Made by a program: the position numbers and the translations under genes. Under the pieces are notes generated by a model. It worked only from the letters and a program-made list of their open reading frames with translations. It was not told where the DNA came from and did no database searches. 64,000 nt of DNA. Source: Methanosarcina sp. DH2 (GTDB lineage Archaea; Halobacteriota; Methanosarcinia; Methanosarcinales; Methanosarcinaceae). The stretch lies in the NCBI RefSeq assembly GCF_020804225.1, contig NZ_WJBI01000014.1, positions 62,252 through 126,251 of the forward strand. The letters run 5' to 3'. Positions 8,271 to 56,709 of this stretch are shown here, in pieces (position 1 is the first letter of the stretch; the number at the start of each line of letters is the position of its first letter).

Positions 8271-9248
8271 ATGACTATTGGGGACGGTCACGATTTAAAA
8301 TCGTCGAGGTTTGCAGGCGACGAGGTTTTAGAGGCTTGCTATGACAAAGAAAAGGTTCTTCGCAGAGGCGATAGCGGCTCAGCAGTAAAAAAAGTTCAGG
8401 AAGCTCTGATAATTCTGGGCATTCCTGTGCCCAAAGTTGGAGCCAATGGTATCTTTGGCGACGAAACTGAGCTGGCTGTCAGGAGCTACCAGGAGGCACG
8501 CGGCTTGAAGGTTGATGGGGTAATAGGGCAGGATACTATAGAAAGTCTGGACGCGGAATTCCCCAGGGTAGTACAAGAACCTTCAGTTTCACCAGCAACA
8601 GAACCATATGTTTCTGAGGTTCCAACTCCATTGGAACCGGAGCCTCCGGTTAAACCACCCAGGGCATCTACGGTTAGACTATCCGGGGACTATCCGGAAC
8701 CTGTAAGAGCGCCTCCGGTCCCGATAGTAGAGGAGCCTCAGGTTCCGCCAGTACAGGCTCCTGTTGTAGAGCGAGTAAGTGCGCCTGTGATCGAACCGGT
8801 AAAGGCACCACCTGTTCCGCCTGTACCGGAGGTATCAGCTCAACCAGAGAGTGCAGCCAGGCGTTTAAAAACAACACCGCCTTCAACTGCACCTGTAACT
8901 CCACCTGTAACTCCGTTGCCCCCGCAGGCTGACAGCCAGGGCAGAAAATTCCATTCGTCAGGGATATGGAGTGGGGATAGTTACTTTGAAGTCCAGGGTG
9001 GCCAATCAATGCACTTTGAGGTGAAAAATATCCATGCTCTTGCATCAACTATCCGGATAAAAGCCAATACTGGAGAAGCTCAAGAAGCTATGATTTTGTC
9101 TCAAACAACTGCCACTTTCGAATTCTCCATGGTTGGCAAAGAGCCTTTTAACTGGAGATTTGAGATTGAAACGGATAGTGATGATACAGCTTTACTTGAG
9201 TGGTATCTCTACAGTACCTGGGTACCAGGAGATCCAGATAATTTTTGA
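8271..9248 (+). CDS. Peptidoglycan-binding-type domain protein with proline-rich linker
   Basis: A 325-residue protein in three parts. Residues about 28-98 form a PG_binding_1-like three-helix module (LRRGDSGSAVKKVQEALIILG ... GIFGDETELAVRSYQE ... GVIGQDTI). Residues about 100-225 are a Pro/Val/Glu-rich linker with PV/PP repeats. Residues about 228-325 are a beta-rich domain with many aromatic residues ending WYLYSTWVPGD. No signal peptide or membrane segment is visible, odd for a wall-binding module, and Methanosarcina has no murein. The gene stands alone between the two hydrogenase operons and ends at a hairpin terminator. The domain fold is secure; its ligand is unknown. Confidence 0.75.
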   Translation: MTIGDGHDLKSSRFAGDEVLEACYDKEKVLRRGDSGSAVKKVQEALIILGIPVPKVGANGIFGDETELAVRSYQEARGLKVDGVIGQDTIESLDAEFPRVVQEPSVSPATEPYVSEVPTPLEPEPPVKPPRASTVRLSGDYPEPVRAPPVPIVEEPQVPPVQAPVVERVSAPVIEPVKAPPVPPVPEVSAQPESAARRLKTTPPSTAPVTPPVTPLPPQADSQGRKFHSSGIWSGDSYFEVQGGQSMHFEVKNIHALASTIRIKANTGEAQEAMILSQTTATFEFSMVGKEPFNWRFEIETDSDDTALLEWYLYSTWVPGDPDNF

Positions 9249-52077: not shown

Positions 52078-52341
52078 TCAGGAACCTGCCTGTTTTTCAT
52101 CAGAAACATTTTTTACAATTTTAGGGATCTTCCTGCCCCTGAAGTTGATTCCGCCTGCAAGTGCCACACCCTGTGTTTTCCGGACTAATTCGGCAGAGCT
52201 GCTGTCAAGGCTGGCAATAATTGTTCTTCCTGCCACCATTTCGATTCTCCCTCCTGACCCGAGGACTACTTTAAGGATTCCCTGGACCTGAAGGGCAGTA
52301 GCATTTTCTGCAACCTTTATAAGATATGTTTCAATTGGCAT
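52078..52341 (-). CDS. Small alpha/beta protein of the PASTA cluster, inhibitor I9-like pattern
   Basis: An 87-residue protein. The pattern TYLIKVAENATALQVQGILKVVLGSGGRIEMVAGRTIIASLDSSSAELVRKT is a beta-alpha-beta-beta-alpha arrangement like subtilisin-propeptide (inhibitor I9) ferredoxin folds, but this is a guess from the strand/helix pattern. No signal peptide. Its ATG lies 15 bases after the stop of the PASTA gene, so the two are co-transcribed. Confidence 0.6.
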   Translation of the reverse strand: MPIETYLIKVAENATALQVQGILKVVLGSGGRIEMVAGRTIIASLDSSSAELVRKTQGVALAGGINFRGRKIPKIVKNVSDEKQAGS

Positions 52342-52356
52342 CGAAAAACCTGCAGA

Positions 52357-54195
52357 TCAAAGTTTAAGCCTGGAAAAGGTACTGGAGCGCAATTGAGTTA
52401 CAGGCGCCGGTATTGAGACTGCAAGGCTGACCGGGACCGACAGGTTAACCGCAGAGCCTGCCCCCGGGTTCTGGCTTATAACCGTACCGGCAGCAACAGT
52501 CGAGATGGCTTCCGAAACCGTTCCGACCTTTATCCCCTGAGCTCCGAGTAAAGAAACCGCCTTTTCAAGAGGCATGCCGATGATGTCCGGAACCAATTCA
52601 GGCTTCGGTTCAGGAGGTACTGCAGTTTGTACTTTCAGGGAGGCGGCAGTATTTAGGGAGGCAGTATTTGGAATAGCAGTATCCAAGGCAGCAGTATTTT
52701 GAGCAGCAGTATTGAGAGTAGTTCCCGCTGGAGTGGTTTCTCCGGAAAGGGCTCCCTTATTGAGAGGTTTTACTGAACTCTCTACCGAATTCTCAACCTG
52801 GGCCGGAAATTTAACTGAGGTTTCGGCCCGGGTCTGCACTTGAGTTTCTGAGGAGGTCTTTACCGGAGTTTCTGCTGAGATCTTTATCGGAGCTTCCGCA
52901 TGCAGATTGACTAAAGGTACACCGGCAGAATTGTCCCCGGATACCTTAGATATGATTTCGGGCTGCGGCTTCGGGAGTGGCTCGGCAGGGACTATATTCG
53001 CCGGTTCTTTTACAACGGTTCCGGGAAAAGACTGAACTGGTTTTTCAAGTACTACTTCCTTTTCTCCTGCTGAGACGATAAGGTCAACTTTTGAGTTTGC
53101 TTCAACTTCAAGTCCTGGTTTGGGGTTCTGCGCAAGCACAATTCCCGGGTTCCCGCGCGAGAGCTGCTCTCTTACTCCACCCAGCTGGAGCCCGGACTTT
53201 TCTATGACCTGCTTTGCGCTTTCAAGCTCAAGCCCGAGCAGGTTTGGAACTTTGAAGACCTTTACAGAAACCGTAAGGACAATTGCAGAATTAACTTCGG
53301 TTTCCGAACCCGGAGTGAGGCTCTGGGCAAGGACTGTACCGGGTGTGCTGTTCGAAGGCTTTTCTTTGACCCCTTCAAGTCGGAGCCGCGATTTTTCAAT
53401 GAGGGTTTTTGCAGCATCAAGCCCGAGCCCTGCAAGGTCCGGGACTTTTACAGACGAAATTTTTGATACTGTAAGGTCTACATATGCCCCAGGTTCTGCA
53501 AGGGAGCTTTCCGAAGGGAGCTGGGTTATAACCGTACCCTGAGGCATGCTGCTCTCCTTCTCAAGGATATCTCCTGCCTTAAAGCCTGCTTCAAATAGTT
53601 TGTTTTCAGCTTCTTCTTTTGAGAGCCCCACAAGAGCAGGAACCTCTTTATAAGAACCAATACCCGATTTTTCGGGAACCGCCTTTAGAGAAAACTCTAT
53701 TGTGCTGAGGTTTTCAGGGCTGATGATGTCATCGGCTTTTGGCATCTGGAACCTCAGTTCCTCCCCTTCGAGAGCAATATTGGTTTTCAGGGTCACATTC
53801 ATGCTGCTGACAAGGTACTTTGGGCCGGACTGCACTTTCTTGAGCCCTCTGTCCATTTCTGCAAGTGAGGAGGCAAAAGAACTGACAAGGTTTGAAGAAG
53901 AGATTACAGGCCTGCTTTTCTGCAAAATAGAAATCCGGGACTCAAGTTCTGCTTTCTCATTTGAGAGCCTTGTCACCTGCGCTGCAAGGCTGCTTTTTTC
54001 CTGTTCAAGGAAGAGTTTTTCCAGAAGCAGCTTTTCCGAACTTTCTTTATAGGCGAGGGCTTCCTTTTGAATGGATTGAAACTCGACTTCCGTGTTATTC
54101 AGTTTAGCCACAAGGCTTGAATAACTGCTCGAATCTATTGTCCCTGCTTTCCTGAATACTTCCAGGCTGCTCCTGAGATCACTTATATTTGTCAT
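52357..54195 (-). CDS. Cytoplasmic four-PASTA-domain protein with coiled coil
   Basis: A 612-residue protein. Residues about 1-95 are a coiled coil (LLLEKLFLEQEKSSLAAQVTRLSNEKAELESRISILQ), 125-178 a beta-rich segment, then three PASTA domains in tandem (about 182-247, 250-315, 318-383), a Thr/Ser/Val/Pro/Ala-rich linker (about 385-525), and a fourth PASTA (about 530-595). Each has the VPxLxGLxxxxAxxxLxxxGLxxG...PGxVxxQxPxPGxxVxxxxxVxLxVS pattern. There is no signal peptide, membrane helix or kinase domain, unlike bacterial PASTA proteins, and Methanosarcina lacks murein. Centre of a co-directional cluster of unrecognised genes. Confidence 0.85.
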   Translation of the reverse strand: MTNISDLRSSLEVFRKAGTIDSSSYSSLVAKLNNTEVEFQSIQKEALAYKESSEKLLLEKLFLEQEKSSLAAQVTRLSNEKAELESRISILQKSRPVISSSNLVSSFASSLAEMDRGLKKVQSGPKYLVSSMNVTLKTNIALEGEELRFQMPKADDIISPENLSTIEFSLKAVPEKSGIGSYKEVPALVGLSKEEAENKLFEAGFKAGDILEKESSMPQGTVITQLPSESSLAEPGAYVDLTVSKISSVKVPDLAGLGLDAAKTLIEKSRLRLEGVKEKPSNSTPGTVLAQSLTPGSETEVNSAIVLTVSVKVFKVPNLLGLELESAKQVIEKSGLQLGGVREQLSRGNPGIVLAQNPKPGLEVEANSKVDLIVSAGEKEVVLEKPVQSFPGTVVKEPANIVPAEPLPKPQPEIISKVSGDNSAGVPLVNLHAEAPIKISAETPVKTSSETQVQTRAETSVKFPAQVENSVESSVKPLNKGALSGETTPAGTTLNTAAQNTAALDTAIPNTASLNTAASLKVQTAVPPEPKPELVPDIIGMPLEKAVSLLGAQGIKVGTVSEAISTVAAGTVISQNPGAGSAVNLSVPVSLAVSIPAPVTQLRSSTFSRLKL

Positions 54196-54232
54196 TCCGT
54201 TCCTCCAGAAAGAAAATTTCCTGACAGGGGCA

Positions 54233-54637
54233 TTATTCCTCCCTCACCCTTGAAGATGCCGGAATGGACACTATTTTCGCTTTGATACAGCTTGAGCCCT
54301 GCACATCATAACTGTAAAGGGAGTTGTACGAGGCATTAAGGGGAGAAGCATTGAGGACAGGCCTGTAGCCCCTTATCCGGTTTTTAGAGTCTCTTTCTTC
54401 TTCAAGCTTCACAGTAAGCGACATCTTGAGCTCAAGGTCTACCTCGGGAATGTGATACCATGCAGCTTGAATGTCATACCCGCTTAGGGCTTTTTCTTCA
54501 TCAATTACTATCTGGGTCTTTATGGAATTTCGGTCAAGAGCCTGCTGAGTCTCAGCAACGGAACGCCCGACTTCCCCCAGAAGCCTGGAAAGAGGGGTAA
54601 TAAGCACTTCTCCGATTTCTTCCCCGTCATTAACCAC
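54233..54637 (-). CDS. Conserved-looking hypothetical protein of the PASTA cluster
   Basis: A 134-residue protein: a helical N-terminus (EVLITPLSRLLGEVGRSVAETQQALDRNS) and then alternating strands (YDIQAAWYHIPEVDLELKMSLTVKLEEE; SSCIKAKIVSIPAS). The strand region resembles residues 125-178 of the PASTA protein in style (LKMSLTVK/ VTLKTNIALEGEELRFQMP). It lies 37 bases upstream of the PASTA gene on the same strand. I do not recognise the family. Confidence 0.65.
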   Translation of the reverse strand: MVNDGEEIGEVLITPLSRLLGEVGRSVAETQQALDRNSIKTQIVIDEEKALSGYDIQAAWYHIPEVDLELKMSLTVKLEEERDSKNRIRGYRPVLNASPLNASYNSLYSYDVQGSSCIKAKIVSIPASSRVREE

Positions 54638-54662
54638 AATAACAACTCCTTGAAGTAGTCCT

Positions 54663-54765
54663 GGAAATAAGTTATGGAAATAAGTTATGGAAATAAGTTC
54701 TTGAATAAATCTTTGAATAAATCCTTGAATAAATCCTTGAATAAATCCTTGAAATAAGTCCTGAA
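54663..54765. repeat. Tandem AT-rich repeats upstream of the 134-residue gene
   Basis: AAATAAGTTATGG occurs in three successive units, followed by four units of TTGAATAAATCC. They fill the gap between the IS-truncated gene and the 134-residue gene and would lie in the transcript leader. Confidence 0.85.
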
Positions 54766-54901
54766 AAGGATATAAAAAAACACGGCAGTACAGCCAGCCT
54801 GTAAAAAGGGTATTTCAGAGCCATACCTGCCGCAACTACAGTCAGGTTCCCCATTATTTCAAAGGAGCCTTTCAGTAGTAAGAAATATTTTATCGGAGGC
54901 T

Positions 54902-55168
54902 TTAGTTAGGGCTGGCTGCCGCAGCAACCTTAACCGTTACCTTGGGAATTGTCCTCTCAGGGGCAGGGACAGGCCTGAGGGTTGTCCTCAGCAGGCTTGT
55001 GCCTTCTTCCTTAAAGGAATATTTAGAGCTGTATTTTGCATTAAACGTGGAGGTATAGGCAACGGTAGTTGTATTTTCAAAGCTCCCCTTGCTTTTTCCG
55101 AAGAGGAGTTTTGCAAGCCCGCCGGACTCCATACTGCCGCTGATCTTTGATTGGTTATTTAACGTCAA
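54902..55168 (-). pseudogene. 5'-truncated gene of the PASTA cluster, cut by the TnpB element
   Basis: An 88-codon frame from the IS edge: SKISGSMESGGLAKLLFGKSKGSFENTTTVAYTSTFNAKYSSKYSFKEEGTSLLRTTLRPVPAPERTIPKVTVKVAAAASPN. The frame is closed by TAG at the insertion junction, and the nearest codons (TTG) have no Shine-Dalgarno. So the insertion removed the start; the missing part is not recognisable on the other side of the element. A downstream ATG (MESGGLAK) could still be used. The Ser/Thr-rich, strand-forming sequence resembles none that I know for sure. Confidence 0.6.
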
Positions 55169-55330
55169 CTACTCGTCACTAAAGTGACAAGCATGGATAT
55201 CCCTGATTTCTCAGATCATATTATCCGTATGGGTGGGTGACTTACACCCCTGTGACTCTAAGATATACCTATAGTCACGTGTTCTGTGTTCGATATTCTG
55301 AGCACCATTCAAATCAGCATTAAGATCGAA
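55165..55330 (-). ncRNA. Candidate omega RNA (reRNA) of the TnpB element
   Basis: TnpB proteins are RNA-guided nucleases whose guide RNA overlaps the 3' end of tnpB and the right end of the element, with the guide read from the flank. Here that RNA would end with the CACTTTAGTGACGAG hairpin and take its guide from about 55165 downwards (TTGACGTTAAATAACC...). Inferred from family knowledge and position; nothing in the sequence proves transcription. Confidence 0.4.
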
Positions 55331-56487
55331 ACCACATGCTTTACATCGAAACGTTAATCCGTTTCTATTATTTTTAGAGATGTGGTTACATCTACAACAA
55401 GTCTGAGATGTATATTCTGGATTTACATACTCGGTTATGATTCCAGCATTTTTGGCTTTATATTCAATGAATTGCTGTAACTGATAGAAAGCCCAACTAT
55501 TATGGAGATATTTTTGTTTCTTTCTCAACTTGTTATTAGTATGATCTCTGATACCTGTCAAGTCCTCTAAACCGATTACAGAAACACTATTTTCAATTGC
55601 GAATTTTACAATTGCTTTAGAGATACAATGATTAACATCTGTCATTAGACGTTTCTCTTTGCCTGCTAGCCGTTTCAGTACACGTTTAGCTGACAAAGTT
55701 CCCTTAGATTGTAATCTTGCTCTCATTTCTTTGTAGATATTTCTCTTGTTTTTGATTTCTCCTCCTGCAAAAAATTTACATTTCTTATCAGTAGTAGAAG
55801 CAACAGCGAGATAATTAATACCTACATCAACTCCCATAAAAGTAGAAGCGTTCTCTATTTTCTGGTCCGGAAGCTCTTGAGATACAGTGAGATGGAAATA
55901 GTAATCTCCATCTTTGTGTTTCACAACTTTAGACGCTTCAAATTTCCACGGAGATTTAAAAAATTGTAATGCATATTCATAGTTCTGGATTTGGTATGTG
56001 TTTCTTCCGTGACTGAAAGTAGTAATACTTACCGAATTTTCAGTTATCGTATAATCTCTCTTGTATGATAATGTCATAGAAGTAGGAGAATAAACTACTT
56101 TCTGCCAATAACTCATACCTATTTTTGCCAGTTTTACTATTGTTTTGTATGTTCCTGCTACTTGTCTTGGTATAGTACAGCTTACCTGAGATTTCAAGCC
56201 TATATTTTCTCGAAGATAAGGATATACCATTTTTTGTAATTTCATAGCAGGTATTATTTTTCCATGTTCAAAAACAACATTAGATGTATAATTCATACCT
56301 TTACTGTATTTTTGCATGGTTTCCACTAAATTAAAATCTGGATTAAGTATTTTCAATTGTATTGTTTTTGTGGATTCCATAATATCTCTGATTCACACAA
56401 ATGTATTTAGAGATTTCGTGTGAAAATTATACTTATGCAGGAGTTGTTAAGATGACGCATTCCTCCCGCCACTAAAGTAACGGGAAT
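55169..56487 (-). mobile_element. IS200/IS605-family TnpB-only element
   Basis: The tnpB gene is flanked by related subterminal hairpins instead of inverted repeats: GTCACTAAAGTGAC at 55175-55188 and CCGCCACTAAAGTAACGGG at 56466-56484; both contain CACTAAAGT. No TnpA is present, so it moves, if at all, with a TnpA supplied elsewhere. Its insertion truncates the gene at 54902-55168. Exact ends are estimated to within about 15 bases. Confidence 0.7.
55211..56380 (-). CDS. tnpB: TnpB RNA-guided nuclease
   Basis: A 389-residue TnpB. RuvC residues are Asp185 (GVDVGIN), Glu272 (IGLEDLTGI) and Asp356 (NADLNGAQN); a four-Cys zinc ribbon is at Cys328/Cys331 and Cys346/Cys349. The N-terminal wedge-like domain is full length, so the enzyme looks intact. 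It would cut DNA at a transposon-adjacent motif under guidance of the omega RNA, helping the element persist. The start codon gives MESTKTIQLK. Confidence 0.92.
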   Translation of the reverse strand: MESTKTIQLKILNPDFNLVETMQKYSKGMNYTSNVVFEHGKIIPAMKLQKMVYPYLRENIGLKSQVSCTIPRQVAGTYKTIVKLAKIGMSYWQKVVYSPTSMTLSYKRDYTITENSVSITTFSHGRNTYQIQNYEYALQFFKSPWKFEASKVVKHKDGDYYFHLTVSQELPDQKIENASTFMGVDVGINYLAVASTTDKKCKFFAGGEIKNKRNIYKEMRARLQSKGTLSAKRVLKRLAGKEKRLMTDVNHCISKAIVKFAIENSVSVIGLEDLTGIRDHTNNKLRKKQKYLHNSWAFYQLQQFIEYKAKNAGIITEYVNPEYTSQTCCRCNHISKNNRNGLTFRCKACGFDLNADLNGAQNIEHRTRDYRYILESQGCKSPTHTDNMI

Positions 56488-56709
56488 CCTGCTTATTTAT
56501 CATAAAACACTTTGTTAAAAAGATAACAAATTTACTTAAAAAATATTTGCAAAGTATTAACCTTTACACCCTCTGAACTTTTACGAAGAAAACACGCTAT
56601 AGAATCCAAAGGAGAAAACTTTATTAATAAAAAAAGAAGAAAGTTAATTAAAAAATATGAAGAGTTGAAAGAGAATAAATTCTACTGTTTACAATGATAC
56701 AGTATAAAT

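Follow-up and report, generated by a model that had tools for sequence, protein, structure and literature searches.

We propose, with a probability of roughly 0.5, that a minus-strand locus in the window (the whole 64,000-nucleotide stretch of Methanosarcina sp. DH2 DNA that was analysed) is a strain-damaged copy of a conserved A-B-C-D operon for a cytosolic heteromeric assembly, in which PASTA arms would bind an internal partner. PASTA domains are textbook modules for sensing murein or beta-lactams, and Methanosarcina is an archaeal genus without murein. The proposal is based on the order, strand and spacing of the four genes, which are kept in every complete family locus examined; on multiple PASTA matches that track gene B across family genomes; on the recurrence of A, B and C, and mostly of D, in other families with unrelated flanks; on profile links (A to B, A to DUF2589, and B and the middle domain of C to the third gene of DUF2589 loci) that beat decoys; on the two-genes-plus-third layout of those loci; on the fusion of PASTA to a B paralog and of an HHH_5/DUF4332 tail to C; and on purifying selection together with the lack of a signal or membrane segment.

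The four-gene locus and its TnpB insertion

The four minus-strand open reading frames of the original prediction, which had described a four-PASTA protein behind a coiled coil in a co-directional run with three small genes, are all present (Table 1). Gene C carries four PASTA stretches (whole-protein E 1.1e-51, Pfam), each scoring 48-54 bits against the PF03793 gathering score of 23.2, and is also matched by NF033483 (PASTA part) in NCBIfam; the PASTA coordinates were converted to window positions from a whole-genome domain scan. The N-terminus of C is charged and coiled-coil-like, with weak coiled-coil-type matches in Pfam and NCBIfam, and its linker is long, of low complexity and rich in Thr, Ala, Glu and Pro. 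No kinase or transpeptidase domain was found in C with Pfam or NCBIfam, and no 19-residue hydrophobic stretch occurs within the first 40 residues of the window's B, C or D. Orthologs of A-D likewise have no signal- or membrane-like N-terminal segment, and the most hydrophobic segment of C (KD 1.61) sits within a PASTA strand. By Pfam, NCBIfam and hydrophobicity, the account of a PASTA protein with no signal peptide, membrane helix or kinase therefore holds, and a search for an export signal on C found none. Gene C shares its PASTA units (PF03793 and part of NF033483) with PASTA Ser/Thr kinases and penicillin-binding proteins but falls outside both groups, having no kinase or transpeptidase domain, no transmembrane segment or other membrane anchor and no extracellular placement. 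Where calculable against six relatives, dN/dS of B, C and D lay within 0.06-0.32, indicating genuine coding genes under purifying selection.

Table 1 Features of the locus, in window positions.
Feature	Position	Strand	Description
Gene D, 87 aa	52078..52341	-	predicted beta-alpha-beta-beta-alpha-beta fold; dN/dS 0.13-0.19
Gene C, 612 aa	52357..54195	-	coiled-coil-like N-terminus, middle domain, 3+1 PASTA units with low-complexity linker; dN/dS 0.16-0.32
PASTA unit 4 of C, beyond linker	52414..52593	-	PF03793, 54.5 bits
PASTA unit 3 of C	53071..53253	-	PF03793, 53.8 bits
PASTA unit 2 of C	53266..53451	-	PF03793, 48.5 bits
PASTA unit 1 of C	53461..53646	-	PF03793, 48.2 bits
C middle domain, about residues 95-179	53660..53913	-	profile match to third gene of DUF2589 clusters, E 1.7e-5
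Gene B, 134 aa, A paralog	54233..54637	-	orthologs in 38/112 family genomes; dN/dS 0.06-0.14
Gene A remnant, 88 aa	54902..55168	-	3' part, residues ~121-206 of the ~205-aa A family; first ~120 codons absent
TnpB-bearing insertion	55163..56565	-	takes the place of ~480 bp (5' part of A plus DNA upstream of it); limits inferred from homology break
tnpB ORF, 389 aa	55211..56380	-	Pfam and NCBIfam matches; guided_TnpB E 4e-61

Over residues 121-206, the intact A of a related locus (L036) is 88% identical to the window (tblastn), and a genome-wide search recovered the 5' part of A nowhere in this genome. Homology to L036 stops at about 55163 and restarts at 56566 (blastn), which indicates that the TnpB element has replaced about 480 bp, including DNA upstream of A. 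The earlier claim that a TnpB element disrupts one of the small genes is thus right in substance, but A is not cleanly interrupted: it is 5'-truncated. Without the 5' part of A, the proposed assembly is probably crippled or altered in this strain. Another Methanosarcina genome (G076, L048:8332-10853) bears a second cassette insertion, independent of this one, in which about 1.3 kb of other sequence splits gene C after about 30 codons. The gap between A and B varies from 44 to 264 bp across genomes, and in the window this spacer contains short tandem repeats (aaataagt and ttgaataaatcc units) at 54672-54760.

Conservation and distribution of the cassette

Gene B was present in 38 of the 112 family genomes, and about 40 family loci were read for cassette layout. 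Within the family, A measures about 205 aa, B about 134 aa, C 355-612 aa and D 80-90 aa. All 32 complete loci, this genome being one of them, have the A-B-C-D order on the same strand, the median gaps between successive genes being about 100, 16 and 15 bp. At least two PASTA matches were found in 35 of the 38 B-positive genomes versus none of the other 74 (Fisher p 6e-26). In most loci of the Methanosarcinaceae the cassette adjoins the ribosomal L3 operon. Loci of other families in the phylum hold A, B and a C-like gene together, with D in most, whereas L3 is not nearby and the flanking genes are unrelated; that A-B-C stay together there argues against chance adjacency. The suspicion that the neighbours of the PASTA gene are not accidental is borne out by these contexts and by the tight, ordered spacing. 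Within the genus the cassette occurs in 10 of 31 genomes, one copy being degraded, and this patchiness marks it as dispensable.

Across the phylum, the A profile matches 39 of the 393 genomes sampled, a few of the matches being fragments, and C carries one to five PASTA units. A C-terminal HHH_5/DUF4332 tail is present on C at four loci (L066, L116, L124 and L128) and absent from the C of Methanosarcina; the tail is a feature of C in older lineages. Some high-GC genomes with acidic proteomes, haloarchaeal in appearance, have an additional A/B paralog, and one locus (L074) has a B paralog with a PASTA unit fused to it. Bacterial sampling, which covered plasmid and phage collections, yielded a PASTA-less version on a Sphaerotilus sulfidivorans plasmid (NZ_CP035710.1, L115:9048-11827). 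This cluster comprises five genes, of which two are A-like, two contain a stretch like C-middle, in one case together with a long coiled coil, and the small first gene resembles D by eye; no PASTA unit is found in it. A viral origin was considered and rejected, no relative being found in phage records or IMG/VR. Literature searches on PASTA in archaea or Methanosarcina, and on Haloferax, turned up nothing about the cassette.

Family relations, predicted structures and a proposed assembly

None of A, B and D has a Pfam or NCBIfam match above cut-off or a PADLOC or PHROG match better than E 0.1; among the PADLOC defence models none matches these three proteins, and C is matched only through shared PASTA or coiled-coil regions. 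Sequence searches found no relative of solved structure for A/B, D or DUF2589. Profiles were compared with hhalign against reversed and column-shuffled decoys, the resulting E-values being pairwise and not database E-values. On this scale A and B are paralogs (E 9e-23); A matches DUF2589 at E 2.6e-6 (decoys at least 0.17) and B does so only at E 0.0037; and the third gene of DUF2589 loci is matched by B (E 5.7e-5), by the C middle domain (E 1.7e-5, decoys at least 0.06) and by DUF2589 itself (E 5e-4). All decoys in these comparisons stayed above 0.02, so that profile-profile similarity beyond decoys places A in a DUF2589-like superfamily, whereas D shows no sequence relationship to any of A, B, C-middle and DUF2589. 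Assignment to PF11655 by HMMER was tried and dropped, with no match in 18 cassette-related genomes or for 31 A members.

DUF2589 (PF11655) clusters, such as AF0414-AF0417 of Archaeoglobus fulgidus, consist of a side-by-side pair of helix-plus-beta paralogs and, after it, a third gene that at its end resembles the middle domain of C, an architecture that parallels A-B-C. Unlike C, the third gene of the DUF2589 loci examined has no coiled coil, PASTA or HhH. The A. fulgidus run of four short DUF2589-related genes is of unknown function and is induced on lactate (PMC3949148).

The model of A has a long helix (residues 13-44), a small hairpin and a very long hairpin (89-121/154-185), at moderate confidence (mean pLDDT 64; 76-89 in the core, below 50, at 30-45, at the hairpin tip). 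A PDB fold search with this model gave nothing significant (best E 0.4). Its only significant fold match is an unnamed 178-aa viral protein in BFVD (A0A516MP19, E 3.9e-4, TM 0.32). Gene D is modelled with higher confidence (AlphaFold2, mean pLDDT 83), and the PDB folds that match it best are those of subtilisin propeptides (3whi, E 5e-4; 1scj, TM 0.6-0.7). The predicted fold of D superposes on that of these Inhibitor I9-type propeptides, but D is a stand-alone protein, has no Pfam I9 match and lies in a cassette without a subtilase.

In the assembly that we propose, A and B, which both consist of a helix and then beta hairpins, would co-assemble with the middle domain of C into an oligomer. 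The coiled coil of C would oligomerise, set the stoichiometry and project the PASTA (and HhH) modules as arms, and these arms may recruit an internal client or polymer; D, a small protein, could cap or chaperone the assembly. On this view the PASTA modules would not sense murein but would have been re-used to bind proteins or ligands. Against this reading stand the moderate model of A with no significant PDB match, the patchy occurrence of the cassette in the genus and the truncation of A in this genome. A wider proposal, which we hold tentatively, is that the cassette represents an undescribed, widely distributed cytosolic assembly of the DUF2589-like superfamily, which recruited PASTA as intracellular arms, PASTA being a general recognition module and not a sensor specific to murein. 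The presence of such a PASTA system, conserved and apparently cytosolic, in archaea that lack murein would make PASTA binding beyond peptidoglycan directly testable, and the orphan families A, B, C middle domain and DUF2589 would be united in one superfamily with a testable operon.

Two of the alternatives concern where the proteins act and whether they still act at all. PASTA is classically an extracellular wall-binding module (PMC1262709), and the long Thr/Ala/Glu/Pro-rich linker of C is of a kind seen in surface proteins, so A-D might be exported non-classically and, at the cell surface, the PASTA units might bind an envelope polymer (S-layer glycan or methanochondroitin) much as bacterial PASTA binds murein. 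We consider this unlikely, as A-D and their orthologs have no signal peptide or membrane helix, the C of other archaea ends in HHH_5/DUF4332, a nucleic-acid- or protein-binding tail expected inside cells, and the bacterial relative is wholly without PASTA. That the window locus is instead a decaying relic with no function left in this genome would fit the loss of the 5' half of A and the absence or degradation of the cassette in most genus members; it is rather improbable given that B, C and D are intact and under strong purifying selection relative to their relatives, although most of that selection predates the insertion.

On a further reading, the cassette could supply adaptors to a conflict or stress system that is linked to a peptidase. 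A, B and C-middle would then be distant relatives of Trypco2, and D would hold a subtilisin-like partner through its propeptide-like fold. Trypco1/2 have been described beside trypsin-like peptidases in conflict systems (PMC7159879), and the Trypco2 adaptors resemble the cassette proteins by eye in layout (a helix, then a strand and a hairpin, with 'L.LTP' closing the final strand). Trypco2 (PF19631) is matched by one A-family member at a sub-threshold E of 0.011, C-middle matches two archaeal Trypco2 sequences at E 0.001 (decoys at least 0.2), and the top fold matches of D point the same way. One archaeal Trypco2 gene, in a Methanosarcina genome (G075, L161:1213-3184, minus strand), adjoins an open reading frame for what looks like a subtilase carrying TPR repeats, a pair that recalls the Trypco-peptidase pairing of bacterial conflict systems. 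These matches are suggestive but lie under the Pfam cut-off; A (E 0.11), B and DUF2589 are not clearly better than decoys against Trypco2; no PADLOC model fits A, B or D; and the propeptide fold is a generic ferredoxin-like one. With the loci read by eye, no conserved peptidase adjoins the cassette, and neither trypsin-like peptidase nor MoxR/vWA genes were seen near it, unlike in bacterial Trypco2 systems; we regard the adaptor reading as doubtful. The model of A, a long helix with a hairpin of about 30-residue strands, might alternatively place A and B in a beta-hairpin ring, tube or pore, with C as its regulator or tether. Along the first long strand, hydrophobic and polar residues alternate (mean z 2.7 over 33 homologs), and the weak PDB matches are mostly long-hairpin pores, tubes and fibres. 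Set against this are the insignificance of those matches, the low confidence of the model precisely in the hairpin and short A homologs that lack the long insert, which leave a pore or tube very improbable. The cytosolic assembly with PASTA arms is our preferred reading.

Other PASTA and PG-binding-type proteins

The PASTA cluster had also been tied to a PG-binding-type protein at 8.3 kb, a connection that did not survive comparison. The PG_binding_1 gene (window 8271-9248, plus strand) encodes 325 aa with no signal peptide and a C-terminal part without a Pfam match. It is confined to the genus within the family, where it occurs in 23 of 31 genomes: 6 of the 10 cassette-bearing and 17 of the 21 cassette-free ones (Fisher p 0.38). 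Its absence from the remaining 4 cassette-bearing genomes and the lack of association rule out the link by co-occurrence.

In a related genus (g5), very long PASTA open reading frames (1351-1541 aa frames; L040:1874-6283, L042:1477-6284 and L052:9601-13524) with a C-like N-terminus lie directly upstream of A, an arrangement that looks like a duplication and expansion of C. The DH2 genome itself encodes a second PASTA protein on another contig (C26, L078:7447-7974, minus strand), which has 175 aa, no signal, a coiled-coil-like N-terminus and one PASTA unit. Apart from the genomes with two or more PASTA matches, Methanosarcina genomes with PASTA contain just one unit, which apparently belongs to a separate protein of about 175 aa, and single-PASTA open reading frames of similar size occur in nearly all Methanosarcina genomes; of the cytosolic PASTA proteins in the genus, this may be the more universal one.
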